Shown here: one piece after another, positions 228 through 62,795 of the stretch | Numbering within the stretch: position 1 is the stretch's first letter | How the letters are laid out: every line of letters begins with the position of its first letter | IMG/VR virus record: IMGVR_UViG_3300025151_000035 | Location: 1-62,795 of that record | Source: a virus | Direction: 5' to 3' (one strand) | Length of the DNA: 62,795 nt | Made by a program: the position numbers and the translations under genes | The notes under the pieces: model-generated | Databases searched by the model: none | Seen by the model: the letters and a program-made list of their open reading frames with translations, nothing else | Told to the model about the DNA's origin: nothing

Positions 228-616
228 ATGCATATATGTTCTCTTACAAGGGAAGAAACAAGAAAGAAGTAGATTTTTCTCACGATCAAAAGACCAATGA
301 CTTAGTACACTACTGGAGAAAACATCCAAACTTAGAACAATGGATGTCTGACCTGTACTTCGAGAAAGGAGGTACAGGAACATACGGTATAGCAGGTAAA
401 GCTTTTAACTGCAATAAACTGCAGCTTACAAGAGAAGATCTGTTAGAACTTAGAGATGTTACAGATAAGAATGCATTACCTATCGGTGGTGGATTCTTTC
501 ACGGTAGTCCTCAAGGTGCTAATGAATACTATAGAGAGGAAACTCTTGAAGCTATAGATCTTGCTTTAGAAGCTATAGAGAATAAAAGGAAGGTATACTA
601 TACTTCCTGGTGGTAA
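218..616 (+). CDS. MGLDxY-family phage protein, unknown function (132 aa)
   Basis: The protein begins MGLDAYMF and carries the marks of a small family found in many phages: an N-terminal MGLD(M/A)Y, a central YWRKHPNLEQWM, an FNCNKLQLTREDL stretch, and a GGGFFHG motif before a C-terminal acidic helix. Homologues are sometimes mislabelled as enzymes, but no activity is established to my knowledge. The start overlaps the 47-residue membrane ORF by 10 nt. The stop (TAA 614-616) abuts the stop of the opposite-strand 1639-residue gene with no gap, so this is the convergence point of rightward and leftward transcription. Confidence 0.8.
   Translation: MGLDAYMFSYKGRNKKEVDFSHDQKTNDLVHYWRKHPNLEQWMSDLYFEKGGTGTYGIAGKAFNCNKLQLTREDLLELRDVTDKNALPIGGGFFHGSPQGANEYYREETLEAIDLALEAIENKRKVYYTSWW
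587..608 (-). terminator. Probable intrinsic terminator of the leftward late arm
   Basis: Read on the minus strand, a 6-bp perfect stem AGGAAG/CTTCCT (loop TATAGTATAC) is followed by TTTATT. It lies just past the stop of the last late gene at 617, inside the 3' end of the convergent gene. The plus strand lacks a T-tract after the same hairpin, so it should act mainly on leftward transcripts. Confidence 0.5.
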
Positions 617-3600
617 TTATTTATCACCGGTTACAAAAGTATAGAACTGATTGTACCCTAATCCAACTGTTTCTGCAAGCTCTCTACCTGCAGATTTCAT
701 TCTACCATCTAACTTGTCTGTAGTAGCCTGCCTATGTATCACAGATACAAGACGTAAGGCATCCTCTACAATACCCAATGAAGGTATAGCGGACTTGTTC
801 AGCTTTATCAATTCATTTGGGTTCAGAGCAAATGTAACTTCCAACTGAACCTTAGCAAGCACTTCAGAAAACATGCGTAATGCATGATTCTGTTGTGCTA
901 AGGTTTCGTCGTCATCTGGTCCAAATCCTCTCATTGCAAATAGTGAGCCTAGCAAAGTAAGTGCTATGGCTATCTGTACCTCTCTTAGTCCTGATCGTAC
1001 AGATGCTTCACGCATTTCTATGTAGGATTCAAGATCTAAGTTTTTAAAGTCAGGATCGTTAGTATTCTTTTTAAGGTAATCCAGTTCTAATTGTATAGAT
1101 GCTCTCTGAGCATTATACTTCTTCTGATCAGAAGCAGACCACTTACCTTTAGCTTCTAAACGGGCCTTTCTTTTATTACTGATATTATATCCTTGGAACA
1201 GTACCAAGTGTGACATAAAATTCTTAGCGGTCTTTAGGTTATTACCTAACCATGTCATGATAGTTTCTCCTTCGTCAAAGTTCTCTCTTTGACTCATGCC
1301 TCTGGCCAGTCCTCCGAATCTTCCTTCTACTGGCGCATCTTCAATGTAATCGAAGTATCTACCTTTAAATCTCTTGTGTAGATATCCAGGCATCCACCAC
1401 TTAAACGTACCAAATAATCTAAATGCCATTTCGGTATGAGCAGCTACAATATTATCTGCACCTTGCTCACCCTTTATACCGGATACAATTCTCTTTACTT
1501 TTTGTCTGAATGTAGTAAAAGCTTCATCAGATAAGGTACCTATCTCTACCCTCATATCACCTTTTTCATTGGTGACAATACCTTCTTTAAGTACTTCTAT
1601 AAGAGGCTTTGTACCTTCTGGTAATTGAGCTAATCTTTTTATTTCTCCATCCTCACTGATACCGTGAGAGTGCATCATAGCTACCGCTACATTTCTATCT
1701 ATAGACCTATCTGTAAGTCCTAACGGCTCATAAAGAAACGATGTGTCTAAAGCTTGAGACAGTGTAGAGCTTTGCATTCTTCTAGCTCTGTGGTATGTAT
1801 GCCCTTCTGTGTGAAGATTCAAGTAATCTGTAACAGCATAGTAAGCTCTTCTGTCACTGGATGCGAACATCTTTATAGACTTATTAAGGTCTTCTCCTGA
1901 ATAGTGTACACCTCCTCTACCCTCAACATGAGTAAATAAACTACCTGCAATCTTAGTAGATATACCTAATCGTACCGGTAAAGAGATCTTCATAAGACTG
2001 AATATGCTATTCATCTTACTGATCATCTTTTGAGCGCTTATATTACCTATGAACATATCGTCACTACTGTATGAGTGACCGTACATGTAGTAGTTAAATA
2101 GCTGATCGTAAAGCTGTATTGTTTCCGGATCTATCTTTTCGTCTCTGAATGTTCCTGCTGCAGTCTTTTCAATAGAACCATAAGCTAATTTACCCTTTAC
2201 AGCTCTCTTCTGCTTAAGCTGTCTGCCTGAAAGCTTTTCAGTTACAAGCTGGTGACGCATGAATTGGAGTTCAGATTCTATTTTAGATTTCTCCATATAG
2301 TTATAGATACTAGAACCCATTAGATACATGGATCTTGATAGGTCTCTAGATACTAACTGAGAACTTTTATCTCCTTTTCTATTACGCAAAGCCTGAATAA
2401 AAGGAAGAGGTATTTTATTTACATTATTACCTCCAGATGTATCATCTTCATCTTCTTTTACAACCCATCCCCTTGAAGCCCAGTCTGTAAGGACGTCTTT
2501 ATCAAAGAACTCTCCCTTGACGGCTCTTTCTACAAGAGAGGTTCTAACTGATGGTATCATATCATAGTTAAGAGATACTCCATCTAGCTCTTCGTTCCAT
2601 TCTTGTAGCTGGTCTTTCCAAGCAGTATAATAATTCAGTAGAGCTTCATTACCTGGAGCATTAAGCATGGTGTACTCTTTACTCCAAACCTCTTTAGCAA
2701 CTTCAGGTTTAACTTCCAGGTAAGCTCTATACCTTGAAGATGTCCAAGCTTTAGGATTACCTCCAAATACATTATACCTGTCTTTAAAAGACTGTAGTTC
2801 AGCATCATAAGCCCTTCCTTGATCAGGGTACTCTAACTTTAACTGCGCAATTCTTTTTTTAAGTAATGCATCGTAAGATTTTTTAGCACCTTCTTTTACT
2901 TGAAAGTGTTTTTTCATCCACTCTATATCTGCATTTGCATCTCTACCTTCTTTATCCGGAGATACTCTCTCTTCAACTTCCCCCCAAAACTCTTTTTTGA
3001 ACATCGGTATAAGCTTAAGCTCTTCACCGGTATCCCTTATAAACATTTCATAGGTCTCTGTTAAAGACCTATTATTATTCTTAGCCCAGACTTTAAGTGT
3101 GTCGTTAAGATCTTCCCACTTCAATCGTAGCTCTTCAGTTCTTCGAGCTATGATATCATGTGTAATATTTATTCTCCTTTTAGTCTCTTTGAAAATAGGA
3201 TTGTCTATTTGGTCCATTACTGTGAACTTCGATAGATACCCTACTTTAGGTGCTAGTACAGTTGTATCTAGCCTAGAAGATTCTTGAGTTCTGAATACAA
3301 GCTCATTCTGTATCTTATTGACACTTCCTCGTACAAGCCTGTCTAAAACTATAAGGTCTTTCTCAAGTTTCTCTTTAGCTTCCTTTGTTTTAAGTGTGTC
3401 TTTTTTGTCCTCCATTATCTCTTCGACATTGGAAAACATTGTAAGAACTTCAAGGGAGTGATGGAGTTCTTCAAACGTTATGAATCCTTCTGAATCAGGA
3501 TCTCTATTATCTACATTCTCCTGTACTTTATTTACAGTATCGTTAAGCTCTTTAATAAGGTTGGAAAAGTTAGACTCTACTACAAAGCTTTGAATAGCTG

Positions 3601-5536
3601 CATAGATAATATCCTTCTCTCTTCTAACCTTTGCACTTGGCTTTTTTATATTAAGCTCTGTAAGCCTGTTGTACAGTTCAGAAAGCTTAGAGTTTATCTT
3701 AGCATCATCAGTATACTCAGATGCTACAGATATATGCTGTAAAAATCTATTCTTCTTAGACCCTATGTTAAAGGTGTTTATACCTGTAGGCTTTCCAGTA
3801 GACCTATCCCAAGAAAAATCCATGTGTCCAGGGATAATTCTTGATCGTCTAATGTTGGTTATACCATAGTTATCTCTTAGAGTTTTACTGTACATGGATA
3901 ACTGTGAGTCATAACTTTCTTTACGGCCTCCTCTAAAAGGATCTATAGCTATCTGTTTAGATCCTGCTTTACCGGTTGTAAACTTTTCTCTAGGGCTTAT
4001 AAACTTGAAGTCGTATACTGCTGCAGATCCATCAGAGAATAGAAAAAGAATATCTATACTACCCCCTGTATCTGTAGCCTTATCATATACACGTACCTCT
4101 GTAAATATTTTAAAATCCTTATCAGGATCAATTTCTTTTTGTATTTCTCGAGCACTATTAAGAAGTCTGGATGTTTCCTCTTTGTACTCTTTAAGCATAG
4201 AGTCGTTAAGACCTGCTGTATTTTGAGCTTCCTTTACAGATACAGTAGGGTTATCATCAAGCTTTACTACTTGAGCACCTTTCATCCTTTTACCTTCAGA
4301 CTCTATAAGTACCTGACCTAATGTGTGAAGATTAGTTCCGGATTCTGCTGCAAACTTAGGCTTCTCTCTTCTTTGAGCTACCTTAACTGCGTCTATGCCT
4401 CCCATGCTACGCATGAACTTTATAGTTGAAGGGTCTGTAACTCTTCGTGATACTACTCTTTCCGATCCGTCGTCCTCAGTATACATGTACCTTGCTATCA
4501 GACCTTGATCGTCCTCAAACAGTTCTACATTCTTCATCTTCCCTTCCACCATGTCTTTGGTAAGTTCAGGGTTGATTCTCAATCTGTTATGTGTCTTTAC
4601 AAGCTCTTCCTCTACAAGTTCTGCAGGCTTACCTGCTTCTAAAGACCTGAAGATCGTAGTATTAGTAGTAGAGTTTACCGCATCTTTATACTCAGAAAGA
4701 TTAGAGTTGAATAGGTTGTATGCTGCTTTTTTATAAGGATCTTCTAAATTGAACATCTCTTTTAAAGCTTTCCAAGCTCTTTGCCACCATCTAGAATCCC
4801 TATCTTCTACAGCATCTTCTCCGACTCTGTTAGTTATTATCTTGGCTATAGCCTCATCTATAAGAGCTTCTTGATCGTAGGTTTCTAGACCTGAATACTT
4901 TTCTACTACCTCTGTATACTCAGGAGTTTTAGTAACTCTGTTTCTCATAGAAGAGTATAAAGGACTGTTTGTATCCTTCAGTGCATTTACATAAAAGTGT
5001 GCAAGCTCTTCTGTTATCTCTGACTCGTTACCCAGAGTAATAAGAACCGCTTTATTCAATAGGTCTGCTGCAGCTACACCTTCTAGTGGATTGCCTTCAC
5101 TGTCTTTAAGGTTCTCCATTACTTTTAATGAAAGACCTAACTGCTCCATAACAGATTTGGCAGATGCAGATATGTTAGTCTCTGCCTCCTCTATCCTGGC
5201 CTGTATTTCTTCTTCTGCGTTTTCAGGGGATACATCTGCAAGTTCCTGGAACTTTTCTAACTCTGATCCTCTGAATCGGACAAGAGTATTTCTTACCATA
5301 TTATCTCTCAGGTAAGAGTGACCTCTTAATGCTTTTGTTTCTGAGCCGTGAAGGTATATTACCGGCTCAGTTTGAATACCGTATGTAGATTCAAGTGTAT
5401 TCTGAATACGAGCTGCTTCTTGGTTAAACTCATATGCAGGTGCAGTAAGTTCATAGAGTCTTCTACTTTCATTGTACTCCATAAGGTCCTTTCCGACCAT
5501 ATTATCTATAACTCTTTGTCGTATACTGCAACTCAT
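617..5536 (-). CDS. Giant probable virion protein with PD-(D/E)XK nuclease domain (1639 aa), partner of the virion RNA polymerase
   Basis: This is the last gene of the late arm, 10 nt after the polymerase gene. I see a RecB-like PD-(D/E)XK nuclease core: an E at about residue 480 (FTEVRVYD), D495 in GGSIDILF, and D509-F-K511 in AVYDFKF. Near the N-terminus, residues 175-181 (TEELAHF) followed by EALIDEAIAK look like a zinc-metallopeptidase helix in which the first HE of HExxH is changed. The rest is long helical and coiled-coil segments, with Gly/Ala-rich and hydrophobic stretches near the C-terminus (LTLLGSLFAMRGFG). In crAss-like phages the genes next to the virion polymerase encode large proteins packaged in the capsid and ejected. 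That role, and nuclease action on host or phage DNA, is inferred. Confidence 0.8.
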   Translation of the reverse strand: MSCSIRQRVIDNMVGKDLMEYNESRRLYELTAPAYEFNQEAARIQNTLESTYGIQTEPVIYLHGSETKALRGHSYLRDNMVRNTLVRFRGSELEKFQELADVSPENAEEEIQARIEEAETNISASAKSVMEQLGLSLKVMENLKDSEGNPLEGVAAADLLNKAVLITLGNESEITEELAHFYVNALKDTNSPLYSSMRNRVTKTPEYTEVVEKYSGLETYDQEALIDEAIAKIITNRVGEDAVEDRDSRWWQRAWKALKEMFNLEDPYKKAAYNLFNSNLSEYKDAVNSTTNTTIFRSLEAGKPAELVEEELVKTHNRLRINPELTKDMVEGKMKNVELFEDDQGLIARYMYTEDDGSERVVSRRVTDPSTIKFMRSMGGIDAVKVAQRREKPKFAAESGTNLHTLGQVLIESEGKRMKGAQVVKLDDNPTVSVKEAQNTAGLNDSMLKEYKEETSRLLNSAREIQKEIDPDKDFKIFTEVRVYDKATDTGGSIDILFLFSDGSAAVYDFKFISPREKFTTGKAGSKQIAIDPFRGGRKESYDSQLSMYSKTLRDNYGITNIRRSRIIPGHMDFSWDRSTGKPTGINTFNIGSKKNRFLQHISVASEYTDDAKINSKLSELYNRLTELNIKKPSAKVRREKDIIYAAIQSFVVESNFSNLIKELNDTVNKVQENVDNRDPDSEGFITFEELHHSLEVLTMFSNVEEIMEDKKDTLKTKEAKEKLEKDLIVLDRLVRGSVNKIQNELVFRTQESSRLDTTVLAPKVGYLSKFTVMDQIDNPIFKETKRRINITHDIIARRTEELRLKWEDLNDTLKVWAKNNNRSLTETYEMFIRDTGEELKLIPMFKKEFWGEVEERVSPDKEGRDANADIEWMKKHFQVKEGAKKSYDALLKKRIAQLKLEYPDQGRAYDAELQSFKDRYNVFGGNPKAWTSSRYRAYLEVKPEVAKEVWSKEYTMLNAPGNEALLNYYTAWKDQLQEWNEELDGVSLNYDMIPSVRTSLVERAVKGEFFDKDVLTDWASRGWVVKEDEDDTSGGNNVNKIPLPFIQALRNRKGDKSSQLVSRDLSRSMYLMGSSIYNYMEKSKIESELQFMRHQLVTEKLSGRQLKQKRAVKGKLAYGSIEKTAAGTFRDEKIDPETIQLYDQLFNYYMYGHSYSSDDMFIGNISAQKMISKMNSIFSLMKISLPVRLGISTKIAGSLFTHVEGRGGVHYSGEDLNKSIKMFASSDRRAYYAVTDYLNLHTEGHTYHRARRMQSSTLSQALDTSFLYEPLGLTDRSIDRNVAVAMMHSHGISEDGEIKRLAQLPEGTKPLIEVLKEGIVTNEKGDMRVEIGTLSDEAFTTFRQKVKRIVSGIKGEQGADNIVAAHTEMAFRLFGTFKWWMPGYLHKRFKGRYFDYIEDAPVEGRFGGLARGMSQRENFDEGETIMTWLGNNLKTAKNFMSHLVLFQGYNISNKRKARLEAKGKWSASDQKKYNAQRASIQLELDYLKKNTNDPDFKNLDLESYIEMREASVRSGLREVQIAIALTLLGSLFAMRGFGPDDDETLAQQNHALRMFSEVLAKVQLEVTFALNPNELIKLNKSAIPSLGIVEDALRLVSVIHRQATTDKLDGRMKSAGRELAETVGLGYNQFYTFVTGDK

Positions 5537-5546
5537 TAGGTTCTTT

Positions 5547-8500
5547 TTAAGCTGTGTAACAGGTAATATCTACATCACCTTCATTATTATCAGGACTTAT
5601 TCTATTCTTGTCAAGCATCTCATTCCTAGGGATACGAATAGTATCTGTCATATTTACAAAAGTACGACTTCCTGTTACAGGAATACTGACTGACTGCATT
5701 GAGTTAGCTGCTCCCCCTGATCTATCTGCTTTAAAGTTTCTATAGAAATACTTCTGAACTTTAGGTAAAGGTAGTCCTGCTTTTCTAGCAGCCTTTCTAG
5801 CCTGCAATGACTCCTTTGTTATCTTGTATGTAAATGGATATAGTTTCTGAGAGAAGCTATTGTCTTTAGGTACTATCTGCCTATCATTATGGTTATCCAT
5901 AAAGAACTTATCAAAGTAAGAGCCTTCTATATTAAGTTGGCTACTGCCATTTAAATAAGAATCCAAATAATCTTCCATATACTCTAATACAAAATCACCA
6001 GGGATGGTATTTAGGAAAGATACCGGTGATGATCCTACACCACTTTGCAGTAATGCTGTCTGCACAAATGCTCTTGCAAGATCAGGGTCTGTAGCTCTAA
6101 TGTCATTGAACCCATCAAAGATAGTTCGCATTTCATAAGAGGTCATAGTTCTACTTACAGGTTGTAGGTAATCATTTGTTCTATCCTGCCCCTCTCTTGA
6201 AGCTGATAGTACAGGAACAAGAGATAGTATAAATGGGTTATCTCTCAAAGGATGATCTCCTTTAGGATCCTGAATCTTCTGAAGCCTGTTTGCCATAGAG
6301 TCATCCCCAAACATAAGTGTCTCTATGTTATTACCTAAAGGTATCATACCTTCTTTATATGCATTCTGTAATATGAATGATATAAATCCATCTTCAAACT
6401 TAGATAGGATACGTGCTCTATCATCTACAGACAGTCCCTTGATTTTAGGGTTTGTAAATATTTTCTGCACTCTTCTAAAGTCATCTCTGTATTGCTCTCC
6501 TGCCTTTTCTGTCAAGAACATTTCATTGAAAACTGTCTGCATACTGAAATTGTATGAGGTCATAGCTTTCATAAAGTTTGCTGGTTCTGACTCATCTGTC
6601 TCACTCAGTTCTTCTGCAGCTACAGATCCTGGAATGTTCATCCCAGATATTCTTTCTACGTTTTCAAACAGGTCAGTACTTACAGCGCTCTCGTACATGT
6701 CAAGTACCACTCTTAGATGGTTTCTATTCTTAGGTACTTTAGTATCAAAGGATTGTGCTGTTACAATATTACCTAAGTCATCTCCTATCTTACTGTACAC
6801 CATCATATCTGTTAAGATTTGAAGCTGTTCAAACTTCTGCTTCTCTGTAAGGTCATTTACATCTTGAGCTACAGTCTCAGCTAGAATATCTGAATTAAAT
6901 GCACGTACTCCAGATTCTGTTTCTGGTACTTTATAACTAGTAGCGTACTTCTTTCTAAGAGATTTTGCTATTTCTTCCTCATACTCACTCTTCTCCATAA
7001 CCTTCATAGTCCTACTTCTTCCTACTTCAAGCTTACTTAAGTAGTCTTTAACTATAGGTTGGTTAGCAAACATTGCTATAGTCTCCATATCTACTCCAGC
7101 TCTAATAAGGAACATCCACATGTTCGCATTATCTGGATTGATATTAAGTATATGAAGTATAGGGGTATTAACTACATCTACAGATGCGTTTACAAGCTGA
7201 CTTATAGCATCAGATATACGCATAGTATTGTTGATGTTCATAGTTCTACCTAGAGAGTATGATTCTGCTAAAGGATCAAATCCTTCAAAGTTCAATCTTA
7301 CTTTTGCAAGTCTCCCCGGTAACTGTATAGACATGTCCTTAGCATTAAGTCTAAGGCCTGCCATCTGTCCCTTAATGTTGTGAGTAGATGCAAGTGCAGC
7401 TATACCTACTAATGTTTTACCCTTATTGAATGCTTCAGACACTTTAATAAGATAAGGTATATCTGTATTTAAGTTGTAATCAGTTATACCTGAAAGGTCA
7501 GGAAGTTTATCAGTCCCTTTATAAAGGTCTGTAATTTTTTCAGCAACGTTCTCAGCATCAGAAGTATTTACCGGCTGCATCCAGGTATCAAACCTTTCTT
7601 GCTTTGCTTCTTCATTAGTTACACCTTTAGCTTGTAATAAGGCTATCATATCCTCCATTACAGCATTCTGCATAGCTCCTCTACTTTGTACATTATATAC
7701 AGTAGCTTCTGGGTTATCCTTCTTCCAGTCTTCAAAAGGTTGTTTACCTACACTCTTTGCAAAGTTGTATACAAGGGCTTGTGTAAGAGAGTCTCCTTTA
7801 AGTTGCTCTAACTCTTCAGGGGTAACTCTATCCTGTGCATTGTACCATTCTTCTAGGGTAGGGTAAAACTTTTCTTTTACAAGTCTATTCCCTACTTTTT
7901 TATAGGATGGAAAATACAATACAAGTTTGTCAATATCAAAGTCAGATCCTGATTTAGTAACCATCTCAGATGGAATTACCACTGTAGGACCGGCACTCCT
8001 AGGTAAGAATCCTTTTACTTTGATAGCCTCAATAGAGTGTATACCATCTGTAGGAATACGTATACCTATCATTTCTACAAGGTCAAGTCCTCCTATAAGT
8101 TCTCCATCGGCAAATATTCCTTCTTGAGTAATAACTACATCTTTATCTACCATCTCTTTGAAGTGATGTGGTAGATATACTTCCATGTACTGATCACCTA
8201 CAGTGTAAGGCTTAAGCTCTTTTAATCTTACTCCTGGAACATCCTCTATTTTGGCAGTCTCAAATCCAAGAGAAGATTGCTGTACATACATGTCCCCATC
8301 AAACTTCTGACGGATAACTCTTTTACCTGCAAGGCTCCATAGTACTCCTTCTAGCCTTCCTTTGTTAGAAACAGCATCAAAGTACATAGGCTTTTTAGCA
8401 TCATTTCTCTCTTGAAGTTTATCCAAAGACGCCATAAGCTGCATAGGCATTTGCCTTCTAATGCTCTCATCTTTAATAGCTTCTAAAAACTTGCTATAGT

Positions 8501-11500
8501 CTTGATTCTTTACAGTATAGGTTCTTATACCCTGATCATCTATAGATTCTTCAAGGTTAAGTTCATCTAATAGCTCTTTGTATCCTCTGTCTATAAGTGC
8601 ATTCAGAACTTCGTTATATCTTTCTACAGTAGGAGCAAGCTCTCTGAACTCTTCTCTTAGCTGTCCATCTTCAAATAGGTCAGAAAGTACTTGTACCCTA
8701 GCCTGTGTAGCAAGAGGTGACTTACCTTTAAACTTAGATGGCACTTCTAACTGTGTACCCATAAAGGTGTAATCTATATTTACTTTCTGTCCTTCAGAGA
8801 ATGATGCTGTAAGATCTTCTGAACTACGGATAACATCTCCGTCCATAAGTTGTAGCTGTCCTGCATCTCCGGGTACACCGATCTTAAATGCAGATGGAAG
8901 TATAAGTCCACCTAATTTATTAGATGTAAGGAAATCATACATATTAAGGATGCCTGGGAATGTCTCATTTCCCATCTTGGCCAAACCTGGATAGATAGGT
9001 GCAGCAGACATTTTAAAGAATCCTGGCACCTGTGTATCTACATTACCATTAGGTAAGTATCCGAAGTATTGGAACTTAAGAGGTGGGAATTTACCGTACT
9101 CTTCTTCAGTAAGAACATCTCCACGCATAGCATTTTCATACGCTCTTTCCTGCTCTACACTCCAAGTATTGCCTCGTATAGCCATTTCTCTATACGATGG
9201 TAAAGTAAGTAATAGTGTACCGTCTGCTTTGTCTGCAGCTCTTCTATATGCTGCTGCTATCTCCGGAGATAAAGTCTCTAAGTATTCGTTGTAGTATGGA
9301 GTAACTCTTTGCGGCTCCTGTATAACTGCAAGGTCCTCTGTACCATCAGACTTTCTACCGTCGTACTTAGCTCTAGCATTTTCAGATTCATTAAGCCACT
9401 TATCAAGTTGAGGATCTACACTGAATATATCCTTTACACCTGCAGCACCCTTAATCCTCTTAAATAATGCTTTATAGAATGCAGGGTCTCCAAAGAATAC
9501 TTTAAAGGTTTCATTCTTATAGACTGTTTGCTTAGTAATTACCTCTTCTAAGAATGCATCTAACTGCTCTGAGTTTATGTTATCAGGGAGTTCTTTTGAA
9601 AAGTGCTCTCTATTAAGTCCTAATACCTGATAAGTACCGTCCTCATTGTCATGAATAACCTTAAGGTCTAACATGTAATCTTTAAGAGTGCGCATATTCA
9701 CTCTAAGATTAGCATCTATAGATTCAAAGATCTGATCAGAATTTTCATTTACAAACTTCTGTACATCTATACGCCCTGCTTTAGGATCGTTCATGATCTC
9801 TGTCATACGGTCTATTATAGACGTATCTACTTTAGACATCAAAGACTCGAACATTCTTAGTGAGCCTAGTCCTGGACGATTGATCCTCTCTGTAAAATAA
9901 TCTACATCTATACCTTCTTTCCTTCCTTTGTTTACAGCCATTATCTCATCCATAAGATAGCCTAAGAAAGCTTCTTTTGCAGAGTCAATGGTTTTAAAAT
10001 CTTGTATAGGGAACCTTATAGCAAAGTTTGTAGATATGTCTGCAGCCTGTAGCAAAGGCATAATGCCTTGCATAATAGATTCTACATAACTTACAAGATT
10101 ATCTGTAGGTCTAAGTTTAGAAGTCTTAACTCCTGTCTCTCCTACACCTTCAATTGTAAGTCCCTCTCTAATGATTATATCTATATTCTTATTCTCATTC
10201 TCTTGCAATGCTTTTAGTGTAAGCGATGAGAATGCATAAGGATTCTTAGATAGATTTTTTGGAGAGGAGTAATATACCCCTCTTAACTTATCCATTCCAG
10301 TATTTGCTATAGTGGTCAGGTAGTTATTCAGGGAGATACTGTATACTATTTTACCTTCAGGATTCTGATGCTGAAACTCATAGTCCATCTTAGTGGTTTC
10401 AAGTTCCAGTTTGGCTAAAGCGTTCATTCTTGTAACACTCTGAGCTTCCTCCCTGTCAAATAGTGCCGCTAAGTTTGTAGTACCTTTAATAAGGTCTCCA
10501 TACACAAATGCAAGACCGTCCTCTAAAACCTCTTTATAGGTCATTTCAGAGTTCTTAAGAGTACGTTCCGGATCTATTTCTAGTATCTCTTCCAGCTTTT
10601 CTCTGTTAGAGAATGTGATACCTATGTGCTCAAGTGCGTCCAGCTTCATACCGTATCCTTTAAGAATTACCTTATCACGTATTTCTTCAAGGGTCAGTTT
10701 TTCTCTATTGAAGTTTGCTTTTGCTTTATTGTCAAATACAATACTGCCTTCTGGACTCATAGTCATATGAGCACTGGTCTTCTCTTTACTTCGTAAGAAC
10801 GAGTCCCACCTTGCACGGATACTCTTTAAGTTTCTTTCAAGGCTAGGATCTATATTTCCTATTCTTCCATTCTCCTGCAGTATAGTATACTGCGTATCAT
10901 ACATAGTTTTTGCAAACTGACTACGTACTGCAGTATGGAGTAATACAGTTTCTATAGCTGTACCTCCATCCATCTCATAATCTCCTAGTCTTTCAAGTAC
11001 TTGTGGTGCCCACTCATAATCTTCAGAAATACCATCTATAATTTCAAGTTGCGTCTCAAAATCAAGTGTACCTTCTAAGTTTGTCTGCAAAGTTTTAAGA
11101 ACTGTTTTAAGTTCATACACTCCTCGTAGACCGGTAGAGTTTGTCTCTCCTGTATTAATAGGAATTGTACCAAGAAGAAGTTTTACTATGCCTTTTGCAG
11201 AATCTGTAGGGGACATTTCCATCCTATCAGATACATCTGCAAACATTCTACTTGATACCTCATCTTCATCTCTTGTATCTTCTATCTCAAAGTCAAGCCC
11301 TAACTCTGATAAGAATTGTTTATGAAGCTGTACGGCCTCTAATCTTTTTTGACGTCCTCCTGCTTCATCTCCGTATAGATACTTTAAGGTTGCTAGAGTC
11401 TGAGCCTGCTCTTCAGATCCTTCTTTTGCGCTATTGTACTTTGCAAGAAGATCATTATACATATTGGTCCAGGCATTGAAGTATGCCATACGTATCTGAG

Positions 11501-14500
11501 CATCTCTTTCTCCTGTAGATAGGTCTAAGAAATCTTCAAACTTTACAGATATTTCCTGCTGTTCTCCGGCTTCGTTTGTAAATGTTCCTCCTTGAAGTGC
11601 ATCTGCAAAGTAAGCTGTAAGTGTAGAGTTAAGGTCTGCTGTAAATCGAGCTGTAGTTTCTCCAGCTAACTTAGCTGACATCATTACATCATCTGCAACA
11701 TCTAAATTCTCTACAGTTCTTTGAGCATTTTTAAAACCTCCCCTCTCAATCTTTGCAAAAAGTTCCTCAACACCTTGAAGATCAAAATCTGTATCCAAAG
11801 CTTTATCCAGTTTGAACATAGCTCTGAATGTGTTCCTGATAAAGTTGAAAAGCTTTTTAAAGAAGTTTTCTTCTCTAGGTGTAACTGTGTCTTTACCTAT
11901 CTTATACTTTCCTTTTGAAAGTGCATACCTTCTAAACTCTTCTGCAAGCCACTCCTCTGTCTCCTTATCCGTAAACTCTGAAAGAGGTTTTGATTTAGGC
12001 TTATAAGATCTGTCTTGCTCTCCTTTAGCTATCTCTTGATAAGGTACCGCTTTACCTTTAAGGTTTCGTACAATATCATATATCTTATTTCTATCTTCTT
12101 TTGATAGCATTGTAAGAGATACATCGTGGAAAGCCTCATGGTATAGTGCCCCACCTGGTGCAAGGTTGGATACTAAGATCTTACCATCTCTTCTAAGCAT
12201 GGCATAACCTTCTCCACTCATACCTTTAACCATACCTATAACAGGTATTATTTCAGCAGAGGTCATTCCTTTTACTCGAGCTAACTCTTCTGCAAACTCC
12301 TCTTTTATATAGTCATCTGAGGCAAGCTCATAAGAACTTGAAAGAAAGTTTTCTTCTTCCCCAGGCTTAGGAGCTTCAAACGTATTAGAATCAGGAGAAG
12401 CATCTGTATCAGAGCTAGAGTTTAACCACTCTTCTACGTAACCTTTAACTTCATCTGTAAGATTTCCTTCTTTGTAAAGTTCTTCAAGACGTTTACCTGA
12501 AGCATTCTTATCATCAAGGTATTCAAATACAAGATCTTTAGATGCCATATTTAATGCATCATCTATCTGAGCTTGTTGAGCTTTTGCAGCTTCATCCTTT
12601 ATAGCTTGATCAGCTTTTTCTTCTGGGGATAGTTCTTGATCAGCCCGTTCTCTAGCATTATTCATAACATCCTCCATGGTTTGACCCTGATCTGGATCAG
12701 GCGGTGTTGGAGGCTGTGGAGTAAATCCTTGTTCTTTCAAAGTCTGTAAAGCAGCTCGTGCTCCTGCTTCTGCAGCATCTGCTAATTCTTGCTCCCTTTT
12801 AGTTTTAAAAGTAGTTTTAACTGCAGGCGCTTTAGCTCTTCTCCCCGCTAAAGACTCTCTTCTTTTTTCTGAAGGATCAAATTTGATATATCCACCTAAA
12901 GCTCTAGGAGCATCTAGAGGTCTAAAGTTTACAGTCTTACCATCTCTTGTCTCTTTCATAAAGATAGGAGTAGCTCTTGTCATTAATGGTGACTGCCCTA
13001 TATCTCTATCTCTTAATAAGTACTCGTTATAGTTTCTCCAAGAGACGTTTGTTTTATCTTCATCTACGCCTAAATTTTCATCAAGTACAAGCTCTACCCA
13101 TCCATCGGTTGCTGTACCGAGGCTACCTTTATTTACGTTATGGTATTTTGTAGATAAGAAGTCAGTAAATGCTTTAACTACTTCAGTACCTTCTTCAAAA
13201 TCCTTAAGTTCAATTGTTTGCTCATCAGCTCCAAATACTAAAGATCCTTTATTGTGGTATAGTTGAAAATCTACATTATCCTTTTCCTTCTTAGAAGATT
13301 GGAAGTATATAAGATCTTCAATTGCTTTTTTAAGATTAACCTTTTTACCTTCTACTTCTATAGTAAAGGCTTGAAGGTTTTTCATTGCAGCTTTATAAGC
13401 TTCAGGAGTTTTTTTCTTTTTCTCTTCAGCTATAAACTCTTCACGTTTCTTCAAAAACAGATGTAATAAGCGAGATGCGTTTACAACTTCTTCTTCAGAA
13501 AGGGTTCTTCCCACCATAGGAATAGGCATCTGCCTTGCAGTATCCTGTGCCCATACAAGTCCCGGTCTAGTAGCAACAGTAGTTTTACCTATAGGTAGGC
13601 CTATTGTGCTAGTAAGTCCTTCATTAGATGATCCTATATATAAAGGAACTTTGCTGTATTCGTTTTTACCGTTAAGCTTTCCACTGTTCTGCTCAGGTTC
13701 TTTATTAAGAATAAGCTCCCCAATAGATTTTTCTTTGATAGGGTATAGGAATATCTCTTGATTTTCTTTAGCCTGATCAATAATCTCATTTCTCCAAGAC
13801 TCATGTGCTGCTCGAATATCTTCTCTCTCAGAGTCTTCTAGATTATAATCATTTCTAAACCTCTCCCTACCATCTATGTCTAGTGTAGGAAGCATAGAGT
13901 TAGCAAAGACCAATCCTTTACCTTGCTCATCTTCTACAGTTACAAACTCATTTACGTTTTCAAACTCAGTTTTACCTGTCTTCTTATTATAGGTGCTTTT
14001 TTGATTTTGAAATACTACGAGTTTAATCTCAGAGCTAGGAAGACCCTGCTCTATTTCTTCTGGAGTTCTATAGAAATCTTCTACAGTAAGCATATCCCCT
14101 AACTCTTCTGGGATATTGTTTACAGTTATTGCAGCTACAGAGTGGCTGTAGTAAGTCTTTTTAGTTGTCTTACTGTGATTAACTGCAAGCTTAACAGAGT
14201 CTTTCCAGTTATGGAATCTTAAAACAGATATAGCGTGAGCAAGTCTTCTTTGCTCATCCTCTGTAGGATTGTCTACATCCTTAAGTTCTTTGTAAGTATC
14301 AAGCGCTCCTTCTTTTATACCCTTACTCAGATCCTTTTTATGGTTGGTTACAGTTTTAGAGTACCCGGTATCTTTAATATCAGGCTTCCTTAAAACTTGT
14401 ACTCCTTCTTTAGAGTTAGATGCATCTTCAAAAGAGTAATCATAGTCTTTACTTGGCTTTGTAGGAGAGGATGTATCTTTCTCCACGCCTGTCATAGAAT

Positions 14501-60502: not shown

Positions 60503-60729
60503 CATTTATTCTCTTTAATACCGAAAGTCAGTTGGTGAGTTACATCAAACGTAAGCTTGATAAACCGTATTGTCATTACGAAGGATGCGGTTGTTGTGGC
60601 TCATCATTGGAGTATCATGTCAATAGTAAAGGTGTACTGTTTCAGGTAGATAAATACTGGCAAGGAGATGCATATTCTACTAATCATACTCCAATTGGAA
60701 GAATAAAGAAATATAGAGCGCGGGGATGA
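60499..60729 (+). CDS. Small protein with CxCC motif (76 aa), unknown
   Basis: MTFILFNTESQLVSYIKRKL...: a helix, then CHYEGCGCCGSSLEYHVNSKG with clustered cysteines (C-x-C-C), then beta-rich VLFQVDKYWQGDAYSTN and a basic tail. The cysteines plus His may bind zinc or iron. Coupled to the previous gene by an ATGA overlap. RNA region 3 follows. Confidence 0.6.
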   Translation: MTFILFNTESQLVSYIKRKLDKPYCHYEGCGCCGSSLEYHVNSKGVLFQVDKYWQGDAYSTNHTPIGRIKKYRARG

Positions 60730-60873
60730 CAACCTCAATCCTTGAAAAGCCACAAGGTAGCAGAAACTTCACGTTATAGGCGAAGCGTGTCAAGGCAGAC
60801 AAGTCTTATACGTACTTATTATAGTGCGTAAAGGTCTGGAAGAGGGAGTGTGTCAGCTCTCTCTTCCAAGACT
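60730..60873 (+). ncRNA. Structured RNA region 3
   Basis: No ORF. Helices: CCTTG-AAAAGCCA-CAAGG; AGTCTT (60802-60807)/AAGACT (60868-60873) enclosing ACG...GCGT and the long hairpin GGAAGAGGGAG (60838-60848)/CTCTCTCTTCC (60857-60867). Its CCTTGAAAAGCCA resembles CCTTGAAATGCCA of the tandem RNA at 62055-62068, a possible link. No clear U-tract follows. Confidence 0.5.
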
Positions 60874-60913
60874 AATCATTTAAACCTTAAAAATCATAAT
60901 AATTATAATAATC

Positions 60914-61381: not shown

Positions 61382-61549
61382 ATGGTAGAAGTATTTGATT
61401 GGTGCGTTTGGGTCTTAGAGACCTGCGCACCGCCACTTGGACTCACATATAAAGAACTTAATGTGTGGGTATTTTGCATTATAGAGCCTATAGTATTTGT
61501 ACTTATGGCTATTTACATTTTAACAACATTTAAAAGGAAAAGATCATGA
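61382..61549 (+). CDS. Small membrane protein (55 aa)
   Basis: From the ATG at 61382: MVEVFDWCVWVLETCAPPLG..., with one clear membrane helix (VFCIIEPIVFVLMAIYIL) and a basic tail TTFKRKRS. An ATG at 61349 in frame would overlap the previous gene by 32 nt; 61382, 1 nt after its stop, is simpler. Together with the preceding gene it may form a two-part membrane unit. Stop overlaps the next start (ATGA). Confidence 0.55.
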   Translation: MVEVFDWCVWVLETCAPPLGLTYKELNVWVFCIIEPIVFVLMAIYILTTFKRKRS

Positions 61550-61968
61550 CTAACAATTCGATCATGAAAATTTGGGCTTACAAGCATAAAGGACAGTGGG
61601 TATTTGATGACGAAGACAGAGGTTTAGTTAAAGAACCATTTGTTGCAGGTGCAGATACACTTTTAGACATTATATCTAAAGGTAAGAACGCAGTCAGTCT
61701 TATATTTTCTGGAGATGATTTTCCTAAAGCGACTCTTGTTATCAATAGAGTTGGTGAAAGTGCGGGATCATTCGGTGGAGGTACAGATTATGTGTTTGAA
61801 GCTCCTGGTATAACACTGCCTGTATGGCTTTGTCCAGCATTGTTCAAGTTTTTCAAAGAAGCACCTGAAACTATTTATGTTTATGCTACACCAGCTGAAT
61901 ATAACGAGCCAGGATTCATAGCTAGAACTATGAGTAAAGTTTTAACGAAAATAGGGGAGGTCGTTTGA
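61546..61968 (+). CDS. Soluble protein with QWVFDDEDRGLVKEPF motif (140 aa), unknown (DUF6717-like?)
   Basis: KIWAYKHKGQWVFDDEDRG, then LVKEPFVAGADTLLDIISKG: this 'QWVFDD...gLV.EPFVAGaDt' pattern recalls a small bacterial and phage family (I believe DUF6717), with no known function. The rest is mixed, including GGGTDYVFEAPG and LPVWLCPALFKFFKEAPETIYVYATPAEYN. It is the last gene of the four-gene coupled unit from 60914. A hairpin overlaps its stop. Confidence 0.6.
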   Translation: MTNNSIMKIWAYKHKGQWVFDDEDRGLVKEPFVAGADTLLDIISKGKNAVSLIFSGDDFPKATLVINRVGESAGSFGGGTDYVFEAPGITLPVWLCPALFKFFKEAPETIYVYATPAEYNEPGFIARTMSKVLTKIGEVV

Positions 61969-61980: not shown

Positions 61981-62011
61981 AAAACAGGTGAACCTAAGAC
62001 CTGAGTGAGTA

Positions 62012-62176
62012 ATCACTAAAGAAGATAAGGGAATAAATAACCTTATCCAGTGTACCCTTGAAATGCCATTAGAGAGGGAAACAGTTTAACGCGATTTAAC
62101 GTTGCATAAATCCTTAAAAGGGTTGACTTAATACACTGAGGAGTTGGCAGCTAGACCATTGAGGGATGGTGCTAAT
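62012..62176 (+). repeat. Pseudoknotted RNA motif, copy 1
   Basis: P1: GATAAGG (62024-62030)/CCTTATC (62041-62047). P2: AGTGTA (62049-62054)/TACACT (62132-62137). P3: CCCT (62055-62058)/AGGG (62075-62078). P4: TGCCA (62064-62068), inside the P3 loop, pairs with TGGCA (62145-62149) outside P2, making a pseudoknot. It ends GATGGTGCTAAT (62165-62176). Five sequence blocks match copy 2 in the same order, including 27 identical nt (62037-62063). Confidence 0.75.
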
Positions 62177-62259
62177 TTAAACGAACCGGTAAGGTCAAAC
62201 CTACGACCTTGTGATAAAAATTAAGGCACTTTAAGTGCGGTTGTGGTTGAAAACTCCAC

Positions 62260-62589
62260 ATCACTAAAAGAAGATAAGGGAAAGTGTAATAAGAATTTTA
62301 CTGGTGTAACTGATGAGGTAGGAAACAGAACTCATTGGGATTGGTGGAAAAAATATCTAAGTTACACATAACCTTATCCAGTGTACCCTTGAAAGTATAG
62401 TCTGCAATGTAGACTATCAGATGCCATTTGAAAGGGACTAACTGCAAAACAGATTTACACTGAGGAGTTGGCAGCAAAGAGATAATGAGCCTGGGCTACA
62501 TTTATGTAGGATGTGTAAAAGCATTAAGGAATATGAAGTAGTTATCTCGTGACCATTTATAGTAGTTTACTATTATAGATGGTGCTAAT
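62260..62589 (+). repeat. Pseudoknotted RNA motif, copy 2 (longer, with inserted hairpins)
   Basis: The same helices: P1 62273-62279/62372-62378; P2 AGTGTA 62380-62385/TACACT 62456-62461; P3 CCCTT 62386-62390/AAGGG 62432-62436; P4 TGCCA 62422-62426/TGGCA 62469-62473. Relative to copy 1, extra stems sit in loops: GTGTAAC (62304-62310)/GTTACAC (62361-62367) inside P1, ATAGTCT (62397-62403)/AGACTAT (62411-62417) between P3 arms, and a longer stretch before GATGGTGCTAAT (62578-62589). Confidence 0.75.
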
Positions 62590-62764
62590 CTTAGACAGTT
62601 GTGGGATACACTCTTGACAACGATCAACTGTCTCAGGCGCATGTAAAATCGGACATGTTGCTGGTAAACAACCGTGATGGGATAGACCCTCATCTACTAA
62701 GATAGTAAGAACCTGGAAAGTCAAGCTGGTTCTGAATTACATAGGTGTACAACTATGTAAACGG

Positions 62765-62795
62765 ACACATATGGTAGGCTATTGCCTATGTGTTT
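62765..62795 (+). terminator. Hairpin with T-run at window edge, possible terminator
   Basis: ACACATA (62765-62771) pairs with TATGTGT (62787-62793), with inner AGGC/GCCT, then TTT at the edge. It may end the tandem RNA, but the tail is cut off. Confidence 0.4.

Follow-up and report, generated by a model that had tools for sequence, protein, structure and literature searches.

A family of structured, pseudoknotted RNAs in environmental phages, present as a tandem pair at the end of a crAss-like phage contig

The record studied here is an IMG/VR contig of 62,795 bases, analysed over its full length (hereafter, the window). Its large terminase is ~40% identical to Crassvirales terminases, e.g. 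that of cr60_1, and the phage is therefore considered crAss-like, as the first-pass annotation of this DNA had supposed. ARAGORN detected no tRNA in the window. The final small plus-strand ORF (61546-61968) is DUF6717, and no gene was found from there to the contig end. The gene-free region of over 800 nt described in the first-pass annotation was thus confirmed, with no plus-strand ORF of at least 60 aa after position 61968 and a longest antisense ORF of 63 aa. A second gene-free, hairpin-rich stretch, possibly another structured RNA, lies between small ORFs at 60727-60900 and contains a strong TGGAAGAGGGAG/CTCTCTCTTCCA hairpin.

The end region contains two tandem copies of an RNA unit, designated unit A, with a further module (module B) directly 3' of the second copy. 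Two units sharing sequence blocks in the same order had been recognised at the outset, and exact direct repeats of 27, 20, 16, and 12 nt do keep their order in both. The starts originally assigned (62012 and 62260) had to be moved to 61985 and 62191, because two more helices (P1 and P2) open each unit. Likewise, the four helices first described form in both copies, but the full unit has nine; the proposed TGCCA/TGGCA pseudoknot pairs in both. The P1 hairpin opening each unit is AGGTCAAACCTACGACCT. The features of the region, all on the plus strand, are as follows:

61985-62176, plus: RNA unit A copy 1, compact, without P6 (covariance model R1 match 61985-62175, E 2.1e-23; alignment A1)
61986-62002, plus: copy 1 P1 hairpin AGGTG/GACCT (helix 1 covaries)
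62005-62016, plus: copy 1 P2 GUGA/UCAC, capped by a GUAA (GNRA) tetraloop
62024-62047, plus: copy 1 P3 GATAAGG/CCTTATC (covariation)
62048-62138, plus: copy 1 P4 CAGTGTA/TACACTG around P5 (62055-62059 with 62074-62078; covariation)
62064-62149, plus: copy 1 pseudoknot, TGCCA 62064-62068 with TGGCA 62145-62149 (covariation)
62155-62176, plus: copy 1 P7 ACCATT/GATGGT and conserved 3' end GCTAAT (alignment)
62191-62589, plus: RNA unit A copy 2, extended, with extra arms (R1 match 62192-62441, E 7.8e-14; fold z -6.8)
62192-62209, plus: copy 2 P1 AGGTC/GACCT
62211-62264, plus: copy 2 P2 GTGAT/ATCAC, bearing an arm
62273-62378, plus: copy 2 P3 GATAAGG/CCTTATC, with a 78-nt hairpin arm
62379-62462, plus: copy 2 P4 CAGTGTA/TACACTG around P5 (62386-62390 with 62432-62436)
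62395-62418, plus: perfect hairpin added within copy 2 P5
62422-62473, plus: copy 2 pseudoknot, TGCCA 62422-62426 with TGGCA 62469-62473 (covariation)
62479-62548, plus: copy 2 P6 GAGATAA/TTATCTC, bearing an arm (covariation)
62552-62589, plus: copy 2 P7 with 15-nt strands, and 3' end GCTAAT (fold)
62590-62795, plus: module B, five hairpins and the kissing pair CTTGAC (62613-62618)/GTCAAG (62720-62725) (alignment A3, pair counts)
62766-62795, plus: terminator-like hairpin CACATA/TATGTG with T tail, at the contig end (sequence; two double changes)

Homologues were sought by pattern, covariance model, and BLASTN searches. The pattern CACTGAGGAGTTGGCAGC matched 18 IMG/VR stretches, 17 of them genuine, together with one Flavobacteriales MAG contig (L023); further patterns brought in L019, L020, L027, and a second, diverged subfamily. 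Contigs matched by a short pattern only, such as L010, L022, and L024, proved to be coding DNA and were excluded. In all, 34 units in two sequence subfamilies could be aligned: the two in the window, one in the MAG contig, and 31 in IMG/VR (two of these in tandem in L006); L073, in which no position could be assigned to P4/P5, was omitted. The element occurs in about thirty environmental phage contigs besides the window. Given that these contigs are metagenomic, we infer their hosts, and the carriers appear to be phages of Bacteroidota, both crAss-like and other environmental ones. Among cultured phages, BLASTN of INPHARED with the window element, the consensus, and two subfamily 2 elements found nothing credible; weak R2 matches in the gut crAss phages cr125_1 and PhiCrAssBcn3 fell within coding sequence and were dismissed as chance. 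PLSDB, queried with the window-type consensus only, gave zero matches. Searching 46 genomes from the order of the MAG with R2 also gave zero matches, an uninformative result since the known member was missed too. Our literature search, of incomplete coverage, found no description of the element.

The alignments define the anatomy of the full unit, which starts 5' with the P1 hairpin AGGUC/GACCU. P2 (GUGA.../...UCAC), which ends in a GNRA loop where the unit is shortest, is followed by the linker UAAAAGAA and then by P3 (GAUAAGG/CCUUAUC), which bears an arm and contains the internal loop GAAA/AUAA. P4 (CAGUGUA/UACACUG) encloses P5 (CCCUU/GAGGG), and UGCCA in the P5 loop forms the pseudoknot with UGGCA, located 3' of P4 and the linker AGGAGU. 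P6 (GAGAUAA/UUAUCUC) bears an arm and is missing from compact forms; P7 (GACCAU/AUGGU) has a GAAA cap in several of these, and GCUAA lies at the 3' end. Three unpaired stretches are invariant in the alignment, namely AGGAGU, UAAAAGAAG, and GCUAA. Unit A ranges from 190 to 490 nt, reaching ~600 nt with module B; the minimal natural form, in L018, comprises the P4-P5-pseudoknot-P7 core alone (~100 nt).

Among the checks proposed in the first-pass annotation were a covariance model searched against related phages, a covariation analysis, and an Rfam scan. The covariance model, run on related phages, matched both window copies (E 2e-23 and 8e-14, both copies being in its training set). When 19 units with trimmed arms were aligned (A1), 95.1% of cells paired. 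Double changes occurred in 21 of 53 pairs, compared with a shuffle mean of 5.9 (0/500) and with 1-7 for slid structures, the shuffles being uncorrected for relatedness and the trimming and segment choice being made by hand; a 26-row core alignment agreed with this result. When all 34 units of both subfamilies were considered, P4, P5, and the pseudoknot were each 95-98% paired, with 4-5 double-change pairs per helix; the structure covaries in both the 19- and 34-unit sets. The pseudoknot paired in 166 of 170 cells across both subfamilies, with double changes in four of its five pairs, where the subfamily 2 5' strand was placed by a complement search within a 13-nt loop (estimated chance ~1% per loop). 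It is near-invariant in the window's subfamily and re-paired in the other, the versions being UGCCA/UGGCA, UGUAA/UUACA, UGUGA/UCACA, and AUGGA/UCCAU. Moreover, a transcript of copy 2 plus module B (62191-62795, 605 nt) folded 6.8 sd below shuffles, and this fold recovered P1, P3-P7, and the terminator hairpin. Chance is excluded by the covariance model matches, the fold of the 605-nt transcript, and the covariation over 19 and 34 units. The element is therefore a structured RNA family, pseudoknot included. As to known families, cmscan with all 4227 Rfam 15 families on the window and homologous loci gave zero matches on the element.

Module B (~205 nt) recurs in L003, L011, L012, and L013; many units lack it. 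In its hairpin B1, 7 of 8 pairs showed double changes, and its conserved kissing pair CUUGAC/GUCAAG was paired in 30/30 cells with zero double changes. The terminator-like hairpin was absent from the list of an automatic terminator scan; its T tracts are longer in L003, L011, and L012.

Around the core, arm lengths range from a tetraloop to more than 100 nt, and arms recur between phages and between positions. L003 and L013 have an identical P2 arm and different P3 arms, that of L003 being common to L007; a 75-nt P3 arm is identical between L012 and L014; and a 65-nt module lies in P7 of L011 and in P6 of L082 at 92% identity. (In L159, the BLAST similarity linking P2 to P4/5 was an artefact of segment boundaries.) The P3 arm of copy 2 recurs 5' of the element in L020 at 92% identity, folding there into a hairpin whose closing pairs differ. 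A coding remnant had been considered for this arm, which translates as TGVTDEVGNRTHWDWWKKYLSYT, and was rejected: many stops interrupt the frame of the L020 homologue, and each of the two copies folds into a hairpin, so it is an RNA arm. In L020, tRNA-like folds occupy the P2 and P3 positions. The second tandem copy in L006 (L006b) is much diverged, keeping P1 and P3-P7 and losing most of the pseudoknot. Both L020 and L006b look degenerate, which means that absolute constraint on the core does not hold in every member. In oriented L006 (4760-5000), a P1-P2 module is duplicated 5' of the full unit, preceded by a lone tRNA T-arm relic (ACAGG TTCGAAT CCTGT).

The mosaic, mobile arms and the tRNA-like folds of L020 are compatible with a decoy or mimic RNA directed against host tRNA, ribosome, or defence, with the arms as exchangeable bait. 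We consider this explanation improbable, however, given that most arms showed no tRNA-like feature in ARAGORN or Rfam searches and that the decoy lacks an identified target.

The genes flanking the units are complete, nearly always lie on the same strand, and mostly differ downstream from one member to another. These observations rule against an intron or coding DNA, alternatives that the first-pass annotation had itself raised, and favour a structured phage RNA. About half of the members having a downstream ORF have it within ~80 nt, and in some members with unit A alone the start codon follows by 15-76 nt. In addition, phrog_15656 genes (function unassigned; LYI-SDDEIKEGDW motif) adjoin six units of both subfamilies, directly downstream in L001, L014, L023, L081, and L140 and upstream in L077. 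These features would also fit a cis role, in which the element, as a structured leader at the 5' end or a spacer between cistrons, controls how the next gene is translated, processed, or stabilised. We regard this as possible but doubtful: the dissimilarity of most downstream genes runs against it; what follows several units is not an ORF but another unit, a tRNA or tmRNA, or module B and its terminator-like hairpin; and a length of 190-490 nt, together with as many as seven arms, is big for a leader.

In four lineages (L077, L144, L103, and L011), a tRNA or tmRNA lies around the element or within 300 nt of it. L077 contains an island of ~24 tRNAs and a permuted tmRNA (RF04321, 53.8 bits) at 589-7111 on the minus strand, with the element between tRNA-Thr and tRNA-Lys on the same strand. 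A tmRNA follows 245 nt downstream in L144, and tRNA-Ile 240 nt downstream in L103. In L011, a permuted tmRNA (468-651, plus strand; ~210 nt downstream) comes directly after module B and is followed by a terminator-like hairpin; the same order was noted for L131. Such placement applies in part to L020 and was not seen for the window or most members. Over whole records, tmRNAs occurred in about 4 of ~32 lineages compared with 2 of 40 controls, which is not clearly higher, and the weight therefore rests on close placement in some lineages. The element resembles tmRNA, permuted forms included, in being a pseudoknotted phage RNA, and a tmRNA is close by in L011, L144, and L077; however, that tmRNA is an adjacent, separate gene, and ARAGORN and cmscan found no T arm, tag frame, or Rfam tmRNA match in the element.

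Introns and ribozymes evolve with a conserved pseudoknotted core and peripheral arms of variable length, as do phage group I introns in particular, and the element resembles them in this respect. A catalytic RNA, either a relative of self-splicing introns or a new self-cleaving ribozyme processing tRNA or operon transcripts, would also accord with the three invariant unpaired stretches and with the processing that tRNA arrays require. Nevertheless, this seems unlikely to us. Whereas an intron would separate split halves, the ORFs flanking the element are uninterrupted. By eye, neither a group I P3-P8/P7 guanosine site nor a group II domain V was recognised in the element, and Rfam models of group I (Intron_gpI) and group II introns and of ribozymes were unmatched on it. 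This Rfam silence is weak evidence, because the split MRE11 of cr125_1 also went unreported: at that locus (11000-13800), MRE11 is split by an endonuclease ORF and the 3' part of an apparent group I intron, and zero Rfam models matched the intron-like part even at E<=10.

To our knowledge, very few large ornate RNA classes have been described (GOLLD, ROOL, OLE, and raiA), and we know of no established function for the phage-borne ones. The element shares several properties with two of them, as the first-pass annotation had suggested. GOLLD, which is included in Rfam, is a large, ornate phage RNA that contains variable regions; it often lies close to tRNA islands, and its linker sometimes includes tRNAs (PMC12286853). 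ROOL occurs in phages and prophages, has multiple pseudoknots, lies near tRNA islands, and has no known protein partner (PMC12286853). The element is likewise phage-borne, large, and pseudoknotted, with variable regions and, in some members, a tRNA-island association. However, it gave no GOLLD or ROOL match with cmscan, and its core, helices, and conserved sequence differ from theirs. Many GOLLD RNAs exceed 800 nt, compared with 190-490 nt for the element, or ~600 nt when module B is included. Unit A has one covarying pseudoknot, and module B has one kissing pair that is conserved and shows zero double changes. Since a covariance model match is absent, the element was not filed as a member of either class; the comparison holds as an analogy and fails as a sequence-structure match.

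Taken together, the Rfam, covariance model, covariation, and coding and intron analyses all favour the new structured phage RNA family put forward in the first-pass annotation. With moderate confidence, we interpret it as a large, trans-acting ornate RNA whose function we infer, related to GOLLD and ROOL by analogy and not by homology. The element would be transcribed in phage operons and provide, in trans, a rigid scaffold made of RNA; its core would set the fold and possibly self-assembly, and its arms may present interchangeable hairpins or tRNA-like domains. This scaffold role would be functionally analogous to those of GOLLD and ROOL and is probably linked to translation during infection. 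A more specific proposal, which we advance only tentatively, is that of an RNA class not known before, in which the pseudoknotted core serves as a socket for interchangeable arms, hairpin or tRNA-like, moving between positions and phages, and which forms an RNA-only scaffold or cage that, made together with tRNAs and tmRNA, reprograms late-infection translation.

As a large ornate RNA of crAss-like and related phages supported by covariation, the family offers an independent system in which to probe the role of such RNAs, by virtue of its ~100-nt minimal form, its swappable arms, and its members in tRNA/tmRNA islands. Two minor observations concern carrier phages. Sub-threshold twister-P1 ribozyme matches (gathering threshold 67.2) were obtained in L013 (3885-3944, minus strand, 56.7 bits) and L145 (2303-2357, plus strand, 39.8 bits). 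Also, one-piece phage tmRNAs were found near the element in L020 (9767-10142, minus strand) and L144 (8101-8550, plus strand), and their tags, AEPKLAMAA and AKVKLAMAA, are alike.
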